Origin: Chryseobacterium sp. Tr-659 | GTDB taxonomy: Bacteria > Bacteroidota > Bacteroidia > Flavobacteriales > Weeksellaceae | DNA length: 64,000 bases | Direction: 5' to 3' | Assembly (NCBI RefSeq): GCF_011752975.1 | Contig: NZ_VWWP01000008.1 | Coordinates: 186,001 to 250,000, forward strand | Shown here: in pieces, positions 44,429 to 50,372 of the stretch | How the letters are laid out: the number at the start of each line of letters is the position of its first letter | Position numbering within the stretch: the stretch's first letter is position 1 | The notes under the pieces: model-generated | Database searches by the model: none | What the model saw: only the letters and a program-made list of their open reading frames with translations | What the model was told of the DNA's origin: nothing | Made by a program: the position numbers and the translations under genes

Positions 44429-44456
44429 TTGAAGTGATATTTGTTTTTTAGTTTCG
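44429..44456 (+). promoter_or_regulatory. Promoter of peptide cassette 1
   Basis: TTG at 44429-44431, a 17-nt spacer and TAGTTTCG at 44449-44456 (one base from TAnnTTTG). Cassette 2 has TAGTTTTG at the matching place, followed at nearly the same distance by the same dyad. Confidence 0.6.
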
Positions 44457-44460
44457 ACAC

Positions 44461-44474
44461 TGTCAATAGTGACA
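44461..44474. promoter_or_regulatory. Conserved dyad after the -7 element, cassette 1
   Basis: TGTCA-ATAG-TGACA is a perfect dyad 4 nt after the -7 element. Cassette 2 has GTCA-ATAA-TGAC in the same position. It would overlap the transcription start, as a repressor site does. Confidence 0.6.
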
Positions 44475-44494
44475 AATAATCTAAAAAAAACATT

Positions 44495-44680
44495 ATGAAA
44501 AAAAACGATTTAAAGAAACTGAAAGGCAGCTTATCAAGAAATGAGCTAAGAACGATTAAAGGAGGGACAATACATGAAGATCCTATAGATATGGGTTGTG
44601 CATGTACCAATGCCGCTTGTGCTGCTACGCATAATGGTAATGGTGATTCGTATTGCAATGGCACCTTTTGTTGTGGATAA
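44495..44680 (+). CDS. GG-leader cysteine-rich peptide precursor, copy 1
   Basis: A 61-residue precursor. The leader LSRNELRTIKGG (Gly-Gly at 23-24) matches the double-glycine leaders of Bacteroidota bacteriocin-like peptides that C39 peptidases cut. The core of 37 residues holds six cysteines at 35, 37, 42, 54, 59 and 60, spaced C-x-C-x4-C-x11-C-x4-CC, and otherwise small or polar residues (DMGCACTNAACAATHN). No homologue with a known activity is recognised. The VKOR/thioredoxin gene downstream suggests the core is oxidised to disulfides. A promoter and dyad lie just upstream, and a hairpin with T-tract lies just downstream. Function as a bacteriocin, signal or structural peptide is open. 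Confidence 0.85.
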   Translation: MKKNDLKKLKGSLSRNELRTIKGGTIHEDPIDMGCACTNAACAATHNGNGDSYCNGTFCCG

Positions 44681-44703
44681 TCAAAATCAGTCCTTTAAAA
44701 ATG

Positions 44704-44730
44704 GCAACAGGAAACTGTTGCTATTTTTTT
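44704..44730 (+). terminator. Internal hairpin (attenuator) in cassette 1
   Basis: A 7-bp stem GCAACAG / CTGTTGC closed by a GAAA tetraloop is followed by TATTTTTTT. It lies between the peptide gene and the oxidoreductase gene and would let part of the transcripts stop after the peptide, favouring high peptide output. Confidence 0.8.
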
Positions 44731-44752
44731 GAAATGTAAAAGAAGTATTAAA

Positions 44753-46312
44753 ATGACACGCAAAAGTTATACTGCTGTTATCAATTATTTAGACTATAAT
44801 AAGATACATATTGACCGGGATGAATTTGAACTTCAGTTGGAAGGACATCCGGACTTTCCAAGCCTTTTAGCATTTTCTGATGCTCTGAATTTTTTCAATA
44901 TTGAAAATTATAGTTATAGAATAGATAACGATGAAAAAGATATTTTACCTGAAGATTTTTTGGCCTTGGTAGAAGGTGAATTGACTGTTGTAAAAAATAA
45001 AAACAATCAGCTTACTATTAATGGTTCTCCTGCACATGATTTTTTTACAAAATGGGAAAATATAATCTTCATTGTAGAACAAGAAGAATCTGCCAATACA
45101 AAACCCAAGTTTGATTATTCCTATATCAATTGGGGAATCTTTATCCTGTTGTTGGTATTTCTATTAGGATATGATTCTTCTAATAGGATATTAAAATTAA
45201 TATTTGCCTGTACTTCTTTGGTGGGATTTATAATGGCTTATGAAGCTTATAAAAAGACGCATGGAAAAGGAACATTTATTCCGGTTGGAGTATGCAAGAG
45301 TAATTATTTGAATACAGATTGTGATTTGGTATTTAATTCCAAAAAATGGAAGCTTTTTACAAAAATAGATTTGTCTGAAATTTCATTGCTGTTTTTTACT
45401 ACTCAAGTCACATGTTTTGTTCTGTTTTCACTGATGGGAAATATCGGATTTTTCCTTGAGGTTTATCAATATGCTTTATTGGGCTTTATACCCATCGCTT
45501 GTATGTCTTTATACTATCAAATAGTTGTGGTTAAAAAATATTGTCCGGTATGTATGGCCATCATCGCTTGCGTATTGATTCAATTAATAGTTGCTAATCT
45601 TATGTTTTTTGATCATAAAACTATTGATGTTGGTTCTGTCATCTTATTTTTTATTGGAATTTTTGGGACAATGATTGTTTTGCTAAACCTAAGGGCAAAT
45701 GAAGAGATCGCACAGAAAAATGAATATATCATTAAGAAAGATTTGAAATTCAGGAGAAACTATAAGTTTTTCAAAAACAATCTATCCTTTCAAAAGAAAC
45801 TGACGGATACCGATTTTTCGGGTGCTTTTGTGTTTGGAAATGAAAAAGCATTGCAAAGCTTAACCTTCATTACCAATCCTTTTTGTAAGCATTGTAAGGA
45901 TTTTTATCCCGTTTTTATAAAGCTGGTGAAAAAATATTCTGACGAATTGAGAATCAATATTTTCTTTGATATAGATCTTGGAAGAGACGATGTGGATAAC
46001 AGAACAGTTCACATAAATCTTAGCAGTATATATATCAATAGCGAAAATAAAGCAGACTTTCTGGAAGCCTTAAGCGGTTGGTATTCAGTTCAGGGATATA
46101 ATGAAAATAAAACCGGCTGGTATAGAAAATATTCTAAATATTTTGGAAACCCAGAAGAAGCACTTGTTATTTTAAAAGAGCATGAAAAATGGTGTGGCAA
46201 CAATAGTATTCATTTTACACCTGATATTTTTATCAATGATACGGAATATCCACTCCAATACGAAAGAGCAGACCTGGAATATTTTATACCGGAACTTTTA
46301 TCTGAAAATTAA
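44753..46312 (+). CDS. C39-like / VKOR / thioredoxin fusion membrane protein, copy 1
   Basis: A 519-residue protein. Residues 1-110 resemble a C39 peptidase domain (FELQLEGHPDFPSLLAFSDA), but no catalytic Cys is visible, so it may only bind the leader. Helices follow from about 125. The VKOR domain has its four cysteines: C181 and C190 (CKSNYLNTDCDLVF) and the active CPVC at C264 and C267. A thioredoxin/DsbA-like domain starts near 350, with TNPFCKHCKDFYP (C378, C381) and the cis-Pro region HFTPDIFIND. VKOR domains pass electrons from a thioredoxin partner to quinone. The fused pair should make disulfides in an exported substrate, most likely the adjacent six-Cys peptide. I chose the ATG at 44753; an earlier TTG sits in the hairpin T-tract. 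Confidence 0.9.
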   Translation: MTRKSYTAVINYLDYNKIHIDRDEFELQLEGHPDFPSLLAFSDALNFFNIENYSYRIDNDEKDILPEDFLALVEGELTVVKNKNNQLTINGSPAHDFFTKWENIIFIVEQEESANTKPKFDYSYINWGIFILLLVFLLGYDSSNRILKLIFACTSLVGFIMAYEAYKKTHGKGTFIPVGVCKSNYLNTDCDLVFNSKKWKLFTKIDLSEISLLFFTTQVTCFVLFSLMGNIGFFLEVYQYALLGFIPIACMSLYYQIVVVKKYCPVCMAIIACVLIQLIVANLMFFDHKTIDVGSVILFFIGIFGTMIVLLNLRANEEIAQKNEYIIKKDLKFRRNYKFFKNNLSFQKKLTDTDFSGAFVFGNEKALQSLTFITNPFCKHCKDFYPVFIKLVKKYSDELRINIFFDIDLGRDDVDNRTVHINLSSIYINSENKADFLEALSGWYSVQGYNENKTGWYRKYSKYFGNPEEALVILKEHEKWCGNNSIHFTPDIFINDTEYPLQYERADLEYFIPELLSEN

Positions 46313-46320
46313 AATTAATT

Positions 46321-47139
46321 ATGAAAAACTTATTATTTATATTGTTGGGAACAGCCATGCTCTTTTCTCAGAACAACAGGTTCATCTATGATGTTAAATA
46401 TAAAAAAGACTCAACTTCAAAGCATATTATCAGAGAAAATTACTATTTGGATATCACAAAAGATGATGTAGCCTATTATAACAGACTGAATTATATTAAT
46501 GATTCAATATTCAGTGTTACTGGAAAATATACACCTGCTAAGCTGACTTCTTTTCTCATAAAAAAGAACAAAAGCAATGTCTATCAAAATTATGAATATA
46601 TTGGGGATGTAAACTTCTATAAAATATCCGAAGAAGCCAGACTGCATTGGAATATCACGGACAGTATAAAAGTTTCCAATCATTTCCGGCTTCAAAAAGC
46701 TACTACGCAATTCGGAGGAAGAAATTGGATCGCATGGTTTTCTAAAGATATTCCCATGCCTTATGGGCCCTATAAGTTTAACGGATTACCAGGGTTGATC
46801 ATGGAATTGTATGATACCAAAAAGAATTATTATTTTAATGTGATTAAAAGTGAAAAGATTCCGGATGATTATAAGCGTCATTCCTTAAATAATTATATAC
46901 CCAGAGCAATTCCCGTTACTCAGAAAGAATTGAATAAATTAAAGTTAGACCTTTATTCCAATCCTTTTAAATATGTTTTGAATGGGGCATTAACGATTCC
47001 GGAAGGAAAGAAACTTCTTTTGGATGATGGGACAGTTCTCTCCAAAGAACAATTGAAACCCGCAGAAGCCAACGAAAGAAAAAAAATAAAATCTTTCAAT
47101 AATCCTATCGAATTGGATAAAGCAATTAAGTATCCTTAA
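46321..47139 (+). CDS. GLPGLI family secreted protein, copy 1
   Basis: A 272-residue exported protein (short signal MKNLLFILLGTAMLFSQ) of the GLPGLI family, named after the motif seen here in PYKFNGLPGLIMELYD. Other family strings are NRFIYDVKYKKDS at the mature start and FGGRNWIAWFSKDIP before the motif. The fold and function of the family are unknown. Proteins are exported to the periplasm or surface in Bacteroidota. It starts 8 nt after the oxidoreductase stop codon, so it is the last gene of the cassette. Its 3' end is identical in DNA to copy 2 over 62 bp. A role in handling the peptide is inference from gene order only. Confidence 0.9.
   Translation: MKNLLFILLGTAMLFSQNNRFIYDVKYKKDSTSKHIIRENYYLDITKDDVAYYNRLNYINDSIFSVTGKYTPAKLTSFLIKKNKSNVYQNYEYIGDVNFYKISEEARLHWNITDSIKVSNHFRLQKATTQFGGRNWIAWFSKDIPMPYGPYKFNGLPGLIMELYDTKKNYYFNVIKSEKIPDDYKRHSLNNYIPRAIPVTQKELNKLKLDLYSNPFKYVLNGALTIPEGKKLLLDDGTVLSKEQLKPAEANERKKIKSFNNPIELDKAIKYP
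47044..47105 (+). repeat. 62-bp perfect repeat, copy 1 (GLPGLI 3' end)
   Basis: Identical base for base to 50222-50283 (offset 3178), while the flanking coding DNA differs at many positions. The block encodes the invariant EQLKPAEANERKKIKSFNN region. Confidence 0.9.
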
Positions 47140-47156
47140 TCTGCTGCTGTATTAAT

Positions 47157-47194
47157 AAAAAAGAACCTTTCAAAATCTTGAAAGGTTCTTTTTT
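47157..47194. terminator. Closing terminator of cassette 1, bidirectional
   Basis: A 16-bp perfect stem AAAAAAGAACCTTTCA / TGAAAGGTTCTTTTTT with loop AAATCT. It ends cassette 1 and also faces the convergent XRE gene. Cassette 2 ends in a related hairpin with loop AAAGCT. Confidence 0.92.
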
Positions 47195-47223
47195 ATTAAT
47201 ACATTAAATAGTGAGTCTATGAG

Positions 47224-47592
47224 TCAAAAATTGTTTTGAGATTTTAATATTCGATTTTCTTCTTTTAATTCATGAATATTTTGCTTTAGAAAAACAATAT
47301 AATCCTGTAAATTTTCAATTAGTGAATGATTGAAATTTTGGATATACTGATATTGGGAGTGATCTTTGAATATGGAATTTCCATTACTGATTATTTTCTC
47401 ATCCTCTTCTTTGATTTCAGAAATAGGAACATTCAGTGTTTCAGATATTTTCTTCCATTCGTCTTCATGTATCCTTACTTCTCCTCGTTCTTTTCGGGAG
47501 TAATTTGAAGGATCAGTTGATAAAATTTTTGCCATTTTCTCTTGAGAAATGCCTTGTAGTTTTCGTAGGTTTTTTAGTTTTTCTTGCTTCAT
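47224..47592 (-). CDS. XRE-family transcriptional regulator between the cassettes
   Basis: A 122-residue protein with an N-terminal HTH_3 domain (residues 3-60: NLRKLQGISQEKMAKILSTD, RKERGEVRIHEDEWKKISE) and a C-terminal helical, probably coiled-coil tail (LQDYIVFLKQNIHELKEENR) suited to dimer formation. It is read opposite to the cassettes and placed exactly between them, so it is a natural candidate for their regulator. A perfect 14-bp palindrome lies about 30 nt before its start codon. A second candidate target is the GTCA-N4-TGAC dyad seen at both cassette promoters. The signal and the direction of regulation are unknown. Confidence 0.88.
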   Translation of the reverse strand: MKQEKLKNLRKLQGISQEKMAKILSTDPSNYSRKERGEVRIHEDEWKKISETLNVPISEIKEEDEKIISNGNSIFKDHSQYQYIQNFNHSLIENLQDYIVFLKQNIHELKEENRILKSQNNF

Positions 47593-47622
47593 TGTTTCTT
47601 AATGTCGATTGCAAATATGCAA

Positions 47623-47636
47623 AACATGTACATGTT
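47623..47636. promoter_or_regulatory. Palindrome upstream of the XRE gene (possible autoregulatory site)
   Basis: AACATGTACATGTT is a perfect 14-nt palindrome, 31 nt before the XRE start codon and about 60 nt before the cassette 2 promoter. It could serve both. Confidence 0.55.
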
Positions 47637-47696
47637 CTGCAAAAAATTTGCCAGAAAAATGCCTGATCTATTTCTCTTATTCGAGATTTTAATTTA

Positions 47697-47704
47697 TAGT
47701 TTTG
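47697..47704 (+). promoter_or_regulatory. -7 promoter element of peptide cassette 2
   Basis: TAGTTTTG fully matches TAnnTTTG. It is followed after 4 nt by the conserved dyad, exactly as in cassette 1 apart from one base. Confidence 0.65.
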
Positions 47705-47708
47705 AAAA

Positions 47709-47720
47709 GTCAATAATGAC
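47709..47720. promoter_or_regulatory. Conserved dyad after the -7 element, cassette 2
   Basis: GTCA-ATAA-TGAC is a perfect dyad 4 nt after the -7 element. It matches TGTCA-ATAG-TGACA in cassette 1. Confidence 0.6.
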
Positions 47721-47743
47721 ACAGAATATTAAAAGAAAATTTT

Positions 47744-47920
47744 ATGAAAAAGAATGCTTTAAAAATTACAAAAGCAAGCTTAACGAGAAACGAGTTAAGA
47801 ACACTTAAAGGAGGAAAAAGAATACCAGATGATCCAGAAACTGGCGTAGAGTGTGGTTGTGTACAAGCAGGCTGTGCTGGAGATGGTAGTGCAAGATGTG
47901 GTGGAGGATGTTGTAACTAA
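47744..47920 (+). CDS. GG-leader cysteine-rich peptide precursor, copy 2 (58 aa)
   Basis: A 58-residue gene, small enough to be missed easily. The leader LTRNELRTLKGG has the Gly-Gly at 23-24, exactly as in copy 1, and the N-terminus MKKNALKITKASL aligns without gaps. The core (34 residues) has six cysteines at 37, 39, 44, 52, 56 and 57, spaced C-x-C-x4-C-x7-C-x3-CC, the same order as copy 1. Loop lengths and most other residues differ (VECGCVQAGCAGDG). Leader and Cys pattern are conserved while the core varies, as expected for a processed peptide under diversifying pressure. Promoter, dyad and downstream hairpin match copy 1. Confidence 0.85.
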   Translation: MKKNALKITKASLTRNELRTLKGGKRIPDDPETGVECGCVQAGCAGDGSARCGGGCCN

Positions 47921-47931
47921 AACTAAATCAC

Positions 47932-47967
47932 AATCAGCAATGAAATTTCATTGCTGATTATTTTTTT
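47932..47967 (+). terminator. Internal hairpin (attenuator) in cassette 2
   Basis: A 14-bp perfect inverted repeat AATCAGCAATGAAA / TTTCATTGCTGATT is followed by ATTTTTTT. It ends 7 nt before the oxidoreductase ATG, so it may also hide the ribosome-binding region. Cassette 1 has an unrelated hairpin at the same place. Confidence 0.82.
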
Positions 47968-47974
47968 AAGATCT

Positions 47975-49483
47975 ATGAAGAAAAATATTAATATACTAAC
48001 CCATTATTTGAACCTTAATGATATTCATGTTGACAAAACTGAGTTTGAATATCAGCTAAATGGTCATCCGGAATTTCCTAATATTCTGTCTTTTTCTGAT
48101 ACACTTCATTTTTTTAATATTGATTGCTCTGTTTTTGAAATAGATAAAGAGGATGTTGAATTGTTACCTGAAAATTTTCTTTCAATTAATGAAGGTGATT
48201 TTAAATTGGAAGACAAAAAAAATTATGATATTTCCACATCTAACGTTGTTTTATTAGTTGATAAATCAGAAATTTTCCACAATGAAAAGAAAAAGAATAA
48301 TATCTTGTTATGGAGTATGCTTTTATTAAGCGCTCTGGTATTATCCATATTATTAATAGACTTTTCTTTTTTTTATATAGGAACTGCATTTTTATCACTT
48401 TCATTTTTAGGAATCTTTCTTTCCTATGAGGCTTATAAAAAGACACATGGTAAAGGAACCTTCATACCTTTAGGTGTATGTCAGAATAAAATGTTGAAAA
48501 CAGACTGTGATTATGTATTCAATTACAAAAAATGGAAGTTTTTTGATATATCTGAGATTTCTTTGCTGTTCTTTTTTTCTCAAATGATCAGTTTTATAAT
48601 TTTAGCAATATATAAAGATCTCAGTTTTTATTATTTTATTTACAAGTACATATTCTACTTATTTATACCTATTTCATTCATTTCATTGTATTATCAGGTT
48701 ATTGTTATTAAAAAACTCTGCCCGGTTTGTATAGGGATCATACTTTCTGTCTATGGCCAGCTGGCTCTTTTATTATTCCTGCCAAATTCTTTAGTGAGTG
48801 TCAATCCATTCTCTATTATTTTGTATCTCATTTTTGTATTGGCTTCTGTACTATTCCTTCTGTATTTGAAGGAAAAAATTTCATGGAATAATAAACTGAA
48901 AGAAGAAATTATAAAAAGTTCGAGGTTTAAAAAGAACTATGCTTTCTTTAGAAATAACCTTTCAATTCAAAAGAAAACTCTTAATGATGATTTTTTAAAC
49001 TCATTTAATTTTGGAACACCTGATTCCAATTTAACATTAACTTTAGTAACAAACCCTTCGTGTAAATATTGTAAAGAGTTTTATCCAACATTTATGAGAA
49101 TTATTAATAATTATGGCAATAAAGTTAATATACGTCTTGTATTGGATGCAGACTTAGATAATTTTCCTGAAAACTTGCGGGCTACCTATATAAACTTAGC
49201 CTGTATTTATGAAAATTCGGAAGATAAAACAACTTTTTTTGTAGCTTTGGAAGAATGGTATAATATAAGAACAGATAAAAACGAAATTGATAAATGGTAT
49301 AATAAGTATTCTCATCTGTTTAATAATCAGTATGATGTGATTTCTATTTTAAATAATCAGAAAAAATGGAGAAATATCAATGACATTAATTTTACACCTG
49401 ATATTTTTATCAATGGATATCAATATCCTATAGAATATGACAGAGCAGATTTAGAGTATTTTATATCAGAGATGGTAGGATAA
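47975..49483 (+). CDS. C39-like / VKOR / thioredoxin fusion membrane protein, copy 2
   Basis: A 502-residue paralogue of the copy 1 protein with the same domains in order. The C39-like part lies at 1-95 (YQLNGHPEFPNILSFSDTL; no active Cys seen) and helices start at about 108. The VKOR cysteines are C169 and C178 (CQNKMLKTDCDYVF) and CPVC at C249 and C252. The thioredoxin motif is TNPSCKYCKEFYP (C363, C366), with FTPDIFING near the end. The block YEAYKKTHGKGTFIPLGVC is almost unchanged from copy 1. I chose the ATG at 47975 (MKKNINILTHYL), because the frame upstream lies in the hairpin. It is 9 nt from the GLPGLI gene. Confidence 0.9.
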   Translation: MKKNINILTHYLNLNDIHVDKTEFEYQLNGHPEFPNILSFSDTLHFFNIDCSVFEIDKEDVELLPENFLSINEGDFKLEDKKNYDISTSNVVLLVDKSEIFHNEKKKNNILLWSMLLLSALVLSILLIDFSFFYIGTAFLSLSFLGIFLSYEAYKKTHGKGTFIPLGVCQNKMLKTDCDYVFNYKKWKFFDISEISLLFFFSQMISFIILAIYKDLSFYYFIYKYIFYLFIPISFISLYYQVIVIKKLCPVCIGIILSVYGQLALLLFLPNSLVSVNPFSIILYLIFVLASVLFLLYLKEKISWNNKLKEEIIKSSRFKKNYAFFRNNLSIQKKTLNDDFLNSFNFGTPDSNLTLTLVTNPSCKYCKEFYPTFMRIINNYGNKVNIRLVLDADLDNFPENLRATYINLACIYENSEDKTTFFVALEEWYNIRTDKNEIDKWYNKYSHLFNNQYDVISILNNQKKWRNINDINFTPDIFINGYQYPIEYDRADLEYFISEMVG

Positions 49484-49492
49484 TAATTAATT

Positions 49493-50317
49493 ATGAAAAA
49501 ACTGTTATTTTTATTATTGGGAACATTTATTTGTTTTTCCCAAAACAATAGATTTATATATGAAGTAGTCTATAAAAAAGATTCTGTTTCTAAAGATTTA
49601 ATAAGAGAAAATTTTAATCTTGATGCAACTACAGAGGATATTGCCTATTATAATAGATTGTATTACGCCAACGATTCGTTATTTGCAGCCAAAAATCAGT
49701 ATGGATTTAAAGGTTATAAACTGACCTCATTTCTGATTAAAAAAAATAACAATAATGAATATCAGAATTATGAATATATAGGAGATGTAAATTTCTATAA
49801 GATAAACGAAAAAGCAGAACAGAATTGGAAGATTACAGACGCTGTTAAAACTTCTGATGGTATTCATCTTCAAAAAGCGGTAACAGAATTTGGAGGAAGA
49901 AGCTGGATAGCATGGTTCTCAAAAGATATTCCCATTCCTTATGGCCCTTATAAATTTAATGGTCTGCCCGGACTTATTATGGAATTATATGATACAAAAA
50001 ATAATTACTATTTCAGAGTGATTAAAAGTGAAAAAATTCCAGACACTTATAAAAGGACTTCATTAGAAAACTCTATTTCCAGGGCAATCCCTGTTGATCA
50101 GAATAAATTGAATAAATTGAAATTAGAATTATATGACAGCCCTTTTAAATATATAATGAACGGAAGGCTTACGTTGCCTGAAGGAAAAAAATTGCAGCTA
50201 GATGACGGAACTATTCTTACAAAAGAACAATTGAAACCCGCAGAAGCCAACGAAAGAAAAAAAATAAAATCTTTCAATAATCCGATAGAGCTTGACAAAG
50301 CAGTCAAATATCCTTAA
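49493..50317 (+). CDS. GLPGLI family secreted protein, copy 2
   Basis: A 274-residue exported protein (signal MKKLLFLLLGTFICFS), paralogous to copy 1 along its whole length. The family core is PYKFNGLPGLIMELYD, preceded by FGGRSWIAWFSKDIP, and the last 60 residues are nearly identical to copy 1. Function is unknown. It closes cassette 2 and is followed by its terminator. The strong conservation next to the variable peptide genes suggests a general, not peptide-specific, role in the system. Confidence 0.9.
   Translation: MKKLLFLLLGTFICFSQNNRFIYEVVYKKDSVSKDLIRENFNLDATTEDIAYYNRLYYANDSLFAAKNQYGFKGYKLTSFLIKKNNNNEYQNYEYIGDVNFYKINEKAEQNWKITDAVKTSDGIHLQKAVTEFGGRSWIAWFSKDIPIPYGPYKFNGLPGLIMELYDTKNNYYFRVIKSEKIPDTYKRTSLENSISRAIPVDQNKLNKLKLELYDSPFKYIMNGRLTLPEGKKLQLDDGTILTKEQLKPAEANERKKIKSFNNPIELDKAVKYP
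50222..50283 (+). repeat. 62-bp perfect repeat, copy 2 (GLPGLI 3' end)
   Basis: Identical base for base to 47044-47105 in the copy 1 gene. See that entry. Confidence 0.9.
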
Positions 50318-50338
50318 TGAGGCACTTTATTAATAAAC

Positions 50339-50372
50339 AAAATCCCTTTCAAAAGCTTGAAAGGGATTTTTG
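50339..50372. terminator. Closing terminator of cassette 2
   Basis: A 13-bp perfect stem AAAATCCCTTTCA / TGAAAGGGATTTT with loop AAAGCT. It is related to the cassette 1 terminator and faces the convergent peptidase gene. Confidence 0.9.

Follow-up and report, generated by a model that had tools for sequence, protein, structure and literature searches.

Paired cassettes of a double-glycine leader peptide, a C39-like/VKOR/DsbA-like fusion protein and a GLPGLI protein in Chryseobacterium sp. Tr-659

A stretch of 64,000 nucleotides from the genome of Chryseobacterium sp. Tr-659 (contig NZ_VWWP01000008.1, positions 186,001 to 250,000; referred to below as the window) was analysed for the gene content and the conservation of two co-directional cassettes located at positions 44449-50370. 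Each cassette consists of a gene for a small cysteine-rich peptide with a double-glycine (GG) leader, a terminator-like hairpin, a gene for a fusion protein with C39-like, VKOR and DsbA-like domains, and a gene for a GLPGLI protein. Each cassette is probably devoted to the production of a single small, secreted and disulfide-rich peptide, which would be oxidised by the fusion protein and released by an exporter encoded elsewhere in the genome. Moreover, the cassettes look like part of a wider system of the Bacteroidota that serves dozens of such peptides per genome. The layout, conservation and co-occurrence of the genes were observed directly; disulfide formation, export and the role of the GLPGLI proteins we infer from sequence. 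The window belongs to contig C34 of the source genome (G000, 4.88 Mb), and the best named matches to the window fusion proteins were from Chryseobacterium.

Conservation of the paired cassettes

The two cassettes have lengths of 2.65 and 2.57 kb, and all of their genes are open at the coordinates given here, on the forward strand. Cassette 1 contains the genes for peptide 1 (61 amino acids (aa), 44495-44680), fusion 1 (519 aa, 44753-46312, with an open reading frame (ORF) that begins upstream at a TTG at 44729) and GLPGLI 1 (272 aa, 46321-47139). Cassette 2 contains the genes for peptide 2 (58 aa, 47744-47920), fusion 2 (501 aa, 47978-49483) and GLPGLI 2 (274 aa, 49493-50317). A sequence-only reading that preceded this analysis had described two units of about 2.7 kb with the same three genes in the same order and had called them a tandem duplication. 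The layout was confirmed and the two cassettes are real, but to judge from the identities of the fusion proteins (42%) and of the GLPGLI proteins (75%) the duplication is old.

The same arrangement was found well outside the window. The fusion gene was followed by the GLPGLI gene in all 20 loci of the trio type (L025-L044) and in all 16 named trio loci (L054-L069); these two sets overlap in species and together comprise 26 distinct peptide genes. The cysteine framework CxCx4Cx6-12Cx3-4CC was present in 37 of 37 trio sources (window counted once) and in none of 108 other loci, namely the 62 named fusion loci that are not trios, the locus L022 and 45 loci around leader matches of the source genome. 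It had been stated beforehand that a genome survey in which these genes adjoin only by chance would speak against a common pathway. Chance adjacency was ruled out by the conservation of the trio, by the controls on GLPGLI-leader pairs, by the joint absence of fusion and leaders and by the shared strand (the last three are given below).

Both peptides of the window carry a GG leader with residues of the C39 recognition type, L-12, E-8, L-7 and I-4 in peptide 1 and L-12, E-8, L-7 and L-4 in peptide 2. C39 peptidases are described in PMC6363468 as reading the hydrophobic leader positions -12, -7 and -4 in pockets. The mature parts have 37 and 34 aa with six cysteines each, arranged as CxCx4Cx11Cx4CC in peptide 1 and as CxCx4Cx7Cx3CC in peptide 2, and thus share one framework. 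Two peptide types, A and B, were distinguished among the trio loci. For type A, the core of 27 codons was compared in 15 distinct genes, and 4 codons were invariant, 18 differed only synonymously and 5 nonsynonymously, while the stretch between the GG and the first cysteine was variable in sequence and length. This codon pattern is that of a translated peptide whose core is under purifying selection. Since the type-B peptides differ at their ends and their core table is out of register, the codon analysis applies to type A only. The NCBI model NF047798 ('bacteriocin-like protein', leader_Chryseo), which spans just 18 leader positions, describes the same leader type and scored 22.0 and 13.0 bits (peptide 1 with E 1.4e-4), both under its curated cut-off of 23.5. 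Two other assignments were rejected. A ribosomally synthesised peptide modified by a radical SAM enzyme was considered on weak matches to TIGR04149, which gave 18.9 and 13.8 bits at a curated cut-off of 25 (no search of the window for a radical SAM gene was made), and the spacings 1-4-11-4-0 and 1-4-7-3-0 do not fit an inhibitor cystine knot (order C..C..CC..C..C).

Fusion protein, leader peptides and exporter

The VKOR and thioredoxin domains that had been assigned from the sequence alone were matched by profiles in both copies. The VKOR profile PF07884 scored 32.8 bits for fusion 1 and 21.3 bits for fusion 2, which lie over and under the gathering cut-off of 27.5, respectively, and Thioredoxin_4 scored 20.9 and 33.2 bits at a Pfam cut-off of 23.2. 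In 52 aligned sequences, both window copies included, the VKOR cysteines C181, C190, C264 and C267 (the loop pair and the CPVC motif) were invariant, as were the CxxC cysteines of the thioredoxin domain (C378 and C381) and its cis-proline (T489-P490). A structural model of the fusion protein (mean predicted local distance difference test score (pLDDT) 83.4, predicted template modelling score 0.64) placed a VKOR fold at about residues 142-292, with Z 12.3-13.2 to VKOR structures among the matches listed, including Synechococcus VKOR 4nv2 (Z 12.3, 139 aligned residues, 3.7 Å). Residues from about 345 to 519 matched ScsC, BdbD and BcfH with Z of about 15. Both the cysteines of the VKOR catalytic core with the predicted VKOR fold and the CxxC, cis-proline and predicted fold of a DsbA-like domain are thus present. 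The N-terminal domain aligned with the C39 domain of neighbouring exporters (hhalign probability 87.4, E 3.6e-6, 92 columns). The catalytic Cys, His and Asp of peptidase C39, which these exporters possess, were not conserved in the alignment of this domain. A Foldseek search with the model gave only thioredoxin-fold proteins among the 50 matches listed and has no bearing on the C39 fold. In the usual VKOR topology the N-terminal domain lies in the cytoplasm and the redox sites in the periplasm, and the C39-like domain would accordingly be cytoplasmic and the redox sites of the fusion protein periplasmic.

The fusion protein was found at E <= 1e-20 in 41 of 395 genomes and in 12 of 170 genera of a phylum sample. 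In a family sample it was present in 139 of 149 genomes of the same genus (source genome included) and missing from 10. In nine of these 10 genomes the leader profile found nothing, and in the tenth (G207) one match below the cut-off; this match, directly 5' of a GLPGLI gene, is the remnant of a leader and lacks both the start codon and the GG. At the same limit seven fusion-bearing genomes gave 6, 13, 16, 18, 23, 29 and 32 leader matches and the source genome 37. VKOR-thioredoxin fusions serve as general oxidases in other phyla, and the fusion protein of the cassettes might likewise be a general periplasmic disulfide oxidase with accidental neighbours. This explanation is strongly disfavoured and very improbable, because the 10 genomes without the fusion are nearly devoid of leaders, and gene order, strand and peptide framework are conserved around it.

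Peptides with this leader were not confined to the cassettes. The adjacent peptide had been regarded as the only cysteine-rich candidate substrate within the window; genome-wide, 48 further leader peptides with at least four cysteines were found besides the two of the window. The census covered 53 of 56 leader places, and cysteine parity was counted for the 45 peptides with at least 17 bits. In 43 of them the mature part has 4, 6 or 8 cysteines, and after removal of redundancy the number is even in 41 of 43. The two odd cases are a 34-aa peptide with one cysteine before a GLPGLI gene and a peptide with five cysteines near a contig end. The eight peptides below 17 bits have 8, 6, 6, 4, 4, 4, 2 and 0 cysteines, the last two being doubtful. 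The order C..C..CC..C..C occurs in 7 of the 26 six-cysteine peptides of the source genome with at least 17 bits. The leader peptides are scattered over the genome (L160-L204), some in small tandem groups, and a group of five on contig C33 (e.g. C33:163817-164845) has a knottin-like spacing.

Similar peptides accompany the fusion gene where the trio is absent. At the 62 named loci of this kind, a GG peptide with at least four cysteines was found in 49, and all 90 such peptides lie on the strand of the fusion gene; the same pattern found none in reversed or five-times-shuffled DNA (a crude two-base shuffle). The number of cysteines is even in 65 of 76 non-redundant peptides from these loci versus 15 of 33 control ORFs. 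Several different cysteine-rich GG peptides stand beside the fusion gene in L086, L095, L115, L122 and L131 (Subsaximicrobium, Tenacibaculum, Bizionia and Roseivirga).

The export step had been assigned to genes elsewhere, and a C39-ABC exporter gene was indeed found on another contig. Contig C2 of the source genome carries a third paralogue of the fusion gene, 31% identical. Downstream of it (L022) are the genes for a C39-ABC exporter, whose QPDTKDCGPTC motif is intact, for a six-cysteine GG peptide and for an HlyD-like protein. This exporter was matched in every one of the 21 trio genomes, source genome included, with 91-98% identity in 19 other trio genomes of the same genus and a partial match of 84% in G003 from another genus. 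The genes flanking the 78 named fusion loci include an ABC exporter in 46 cases, 45 of them with the C39 catalytic motif; these loci are the best 78 of 298 candidates and lean toward close relatives. At the 16 named trio loci the flanks contained none. An ABC protein of the exporter kind is also present in 7 of the 10 genomes without the fusion, with 90% identity in G207 and 46-50% elsewhere. In these comparisons the joint absence, the even cysteine numbers and the exporters beside the fusion gene support the role in making disulfide-rich peptides that had been proposed for the fusion protein.

GLPGLI proteins and regulatory elements

GLPGLI 1 and GLPGLI 2 scored 147.2 and 145.6 bits with TIGR01200, both over the curated cut-off of 50. 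The source genome contains 17 GLPGLI matches. In seven other genomes with 105 matches (one split gene included), a leader was located on the same strand within 500 bp upstream in 5 cases, downstream in none and on the other strand in one. Rotated controls gave a mean of 0.10 and a maximum of 3 pairs in 2000 rounds, and four of the five pairs came from one genome. GLPGLI genes were present in the flanks of 8 of the 62 fusion loci without a trio; the GLPGLI profile applied to the named loci had been built from 8 of the 16 trios among them. The proposed tie of GLPGLI proteins to a peptide system thus exceeds chance, but it exists only for a minority of GLPGLI genes: the five pairs exceed the controls, yet around the 15 other GLPGLI loci of the source genome the pattern used found no cysteine-rich GG peptide within 1.5 kb.

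The GLPGLI model (pLDDT 80.9) best matched the N-domain of PNGase F-II (4r4x, Z 14.9, 174 aligned residues, 3.3 Å), followed by LolA, RseB, ependymin-related and other proteins with Z of about 7-11. GLPGLI 1 has a signal-like N-terminal helix and a predicted fold like that of LolA and the PNGase F-II N-domain. In Chryseobacterium culicis (L061, 5001-10599), cassette A carries a GLPGLI gene of type B (84% identical to the B gene of L066 and 70% to window A), whereas the fusion protein of this cassette is still of type A (73% identity with window A and 41% with its own B). This points to gene conversion among tandem cassettes. Similarly, a run of 62 identical bases is shared by the two window GLPGLI genes at their 3' ends (47044-47105 and 50222-50283), at 75% overall identity of the proteins, and again this suggests conversion. 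Taken together, the GLPGLI protein seems to be exchangeable between the two peptide types, which favours a shared carrier, a chaperone or broad immunity over strict one-to-one immunity.

If the GLPGLI protein were a bacteriocin immunity protein, the cassette would read as toxin, maturase and immunity gene. One GLPGLI gene per cassette in third position of the operon and the signal-like N-terminus are in line with this, and so are neighbouring peptide and GLPGLI genes without an intervening fusion gene (L065, L059 and the five pairs in other genomes). We nevertheless regard it as unlikely, given the exchange in C. culicis, the 100 of 105 GLPGLI genes in the seven genomes without a leader within 500 bp upstream and the predicted LolA/PNGase F-II N-domain-like fold. 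The neighbouring pairs near trio cassettes are located at 3464-3646/3719-4546 in L059 and at 1444-1599/544-1371 in L065. In the source genome, an ORF with a one-cysteine leader peptide stands directly before a GLPGLI gene (C30:71265-72256, L202), and the leader remnant of G207 (L219, 1501-2498) occupies the same position; both are perhaps decayed peptide-GLPGLI pairs.

Promoter-like and terminator-like elements recur in both cassettes. Upstream of peptide 1, a promoter/operator region at 44449-44474 consists of the box TAGTTTCG (44449-44456) and the palindromic site GTCAATAGTGACA (44462-44474), and cassette 2 has TAGTTTTG (47697-47704) and GTCAATAATGACA (47709-47721) within 47697-47721, all on the forward strand. 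Across the source genome, the 13-base site GTCAATARTGACA was matched exactly at the two cassettes and nowhere else. When one mismatch was allowed, there were 14 matches versus 19 for the backward control; being no commoner than the control, the near matches carry no weight. The palindromic site GTCAATARTGAC stands 5' of the peptide gene exactly in 20 of the 26 distinct trio genes and with one mismatch in 4, and is absent from 2 (L037 and L038); a TAGTTTYG-like box lies upstream of it. A terminator-like hairpin 3' of the peptide gene was present in 22 of 25 distinct trio intervals, with a GAAA loop in type A. In cassette 1 of the window it occupies 44704-44728, separates the peptide gene from the fusion gene and has a GAAA loop and a T run (forward strand; the scan entry is on the other strand); in cassette 2 it occupies the corresponding place, 47932-47968, and has a stem of 12 bp and a T run (forward strand). 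The similarity of promoter and terminator that had been noticed in both units was confirmed. The hairpin after the peptide gene would lead to high peptide and low enzyme expression.

An XRE-family helix-turn-helix (HTH) gene (47224-47592, reverse strand; HTH_3 43.1 bits) stands between the cassettes and is divergent from peptide 2, which makes its product a candidate regulator. The peptides may also be intercellular signals instead of toxins, to which the HTH protein or another regulator responds with the palindromic site as operator. The strong conservation of the type-A core across species, with 22 of 27 codons without amino-acid change, the shared 13-base site with exact matches at the cassettes only and the position of the HTH gene would agree with such a function. 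We hold it to be possible but rather doubtful, since an HTH homologue was found near just 11 of the 36 trio loci (flanks of 1.5-5 kb) and no receptor was identified. Additional terminator-like elements are an inverted repeat with a T run after GLPGLI 1 (47162-47196, forward strand; found by eye and absent from the scan listing) and a hairpin after cassette 2 (50339-50370, scored on both strands).

Proposed mechanism and relation to known systems

According to the proposed mechanism for a dedicated peptide production unit, the leaky terminator between the genes would yield the peptide in excess over the fusion enzyme. The fusion protein would reside in the inner membrane; on the cytoplasmic side, its degenerate C39-like domain probably binds the leader and guides the enzyme to the exporter. 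The leader would be removed after the GG, and the core of 34-37 aa exported, by a C39-ABC exporter from another part of the genome, for which a gene is present. As the core emerges, the periplasmic VKOR and DsbA-like domains would form three disulfides in it and pass electrons to quinone; this step is suggested by the conserved cysteines, the predicted fold and the chemistry of VKOR. The least certain part is the GLPGLI protein, which is predicted to be LolA-like with a signal-like N-terminus and probably binds peptides of the family as a carrier, chaperone or immunity factor. The peptide itself would most likely be a bacteriocin or a signal with a conserved target. A broader version, held tentatively and with clearly less confidence than the production unit itself, is a general disulfide-peptide secretion system in Flavobacteria and relatives. 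In it, one exporter and one oxidase, recruited by the leader, would serve dozens of scattered peptides with unrelated frameworks, some of them knottin-like, and GLPGLI proteins would be the periplasmic partners of a subset.

Several points weigh against the proposed production unit. The genome encodes three ABC proteins that match the exporter at E <= 1e-100; their genes lie on C2, C29 and C22, whereas the window is part of C34, and each of the three is a candidate for serving the cassettes. The C39-like assignment comes from one moderate profile match, and the N-domain profile found no convincing sequence match in the PDB. The genomes without the fusion may represent few lineages, in which case the joint absence would not correspond to ten independent losses, and one of them, G207, retains the 90% identical exporter. 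By the pattern used, 13 of the 62 fusion loci without a trio lack a cysteine-rich GG peptide, and so do the surroundings (1.5 kb) of 15 other GLPGLI loci of the source genome; the leader pattern was written after part of these leaders had been seen. Moreover, CxC and CC motifs occur in metal-binding peptides too. The peptides could therefore be secreted metallothionein-like proteins in which these motifs, together with the one histidine conserved in the type-A core, serve as metal ligands, and the fusion protein would oxidise something else. Even cysteine numbers across unrelated frameworks suit disulfides better, and the oxidase gene runs in the same direction as the peptide genes, so that metal binding appears improbable.

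With respect to known systems, Synechococcus VKOR (4nv2) is a VKOR-thioredoxin fusion and shares the four-cysteine VKOR core and a thioredoxin-fold domain with the window fusion proteins. Compared with bacterial fusions of this type, those of the window have an additional N-terminal C39-like domain; their thioredoxin domain is DsbA-like, and their genes are linked to those of GG peptides. The GLPGLI proteins are members of TIGR01200/Porph_ging by score and motif, and their clade travels with the peptide and the oxidase. A degenerate C39 domain without the catalytic Cys, proposed to recruit the substrate, is described for type I secretion ABC exporters such as HlyB in PMC6363468; the putative C39-like domain of the fusion protein is likewise degenerate, but it sits on the oxidase and not on the transporter.

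The closest known system is that of the bacteroidetocins (proposed class IIf), as presented in PMC6671954, which likewise come from Bacteroidota and have a GG leader. Their mature peptide also contains cysteines and changes its migration on reduction, and their gene regions carry a C39-ABC exporter, a protein with several transmembrane segments and, in most, a thiol oxidoreductase nearby. In bacteroidetocins A and B the mature 42 aa include four cysteines, whereas the window peptides have six in 37 and 34 aa; further members carry at least two (PMC6671954). Their exporter gene is adjacent, in contrast to the cassettes, whose C39-ABC matches lie on the other contigs named above. In addition, the oxidase of the cassettes is a single C39-like/VKOR/DsbA-like protein and a GLPGLI protein is present; the two systems are set apart here by their descriptions and genes only. 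The sequence-only reading had spoken of an undescribed pathway, and this was an overstatement, as a cysteine peptide with a GG leader is already combined with a C39-ABC exporter and a thiol oxidoreductase in the bacteroidetocins (PMC6671954), and NCBIfam already names the leader type. TMcin looks unrelated to the cassette system. A literature search that covered few subscription papers returned nothing that joins the fusion protein, GG peptides and GLPGLI proteins among the matches listed, no combination of GLPGLI with vitamin K epoxide reductase and no published function for the GLPGLI family. GLPGLI genes are reported to be PhoP-regulated in Riemerella, with no function given in the passages concerned.

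If the proposed production units are real, a single Chryseobacterium-like genome would encode about 50 secreted peptides, mostly with even cysteine numbers, plus the machinery for making them, and these bacteria would represent a large and little-explored source of disulfide-rich natural products. The fusion protein would then stand for a new coupling of oxidation to export, in which a degenerate protease domain brings the oxidase to the leader peptide. Some GLPGLI proteins would gain a concrete context, and under the broader version, with one exporter and one oxidase serving many peptides, this large orphan family would receive its first role.

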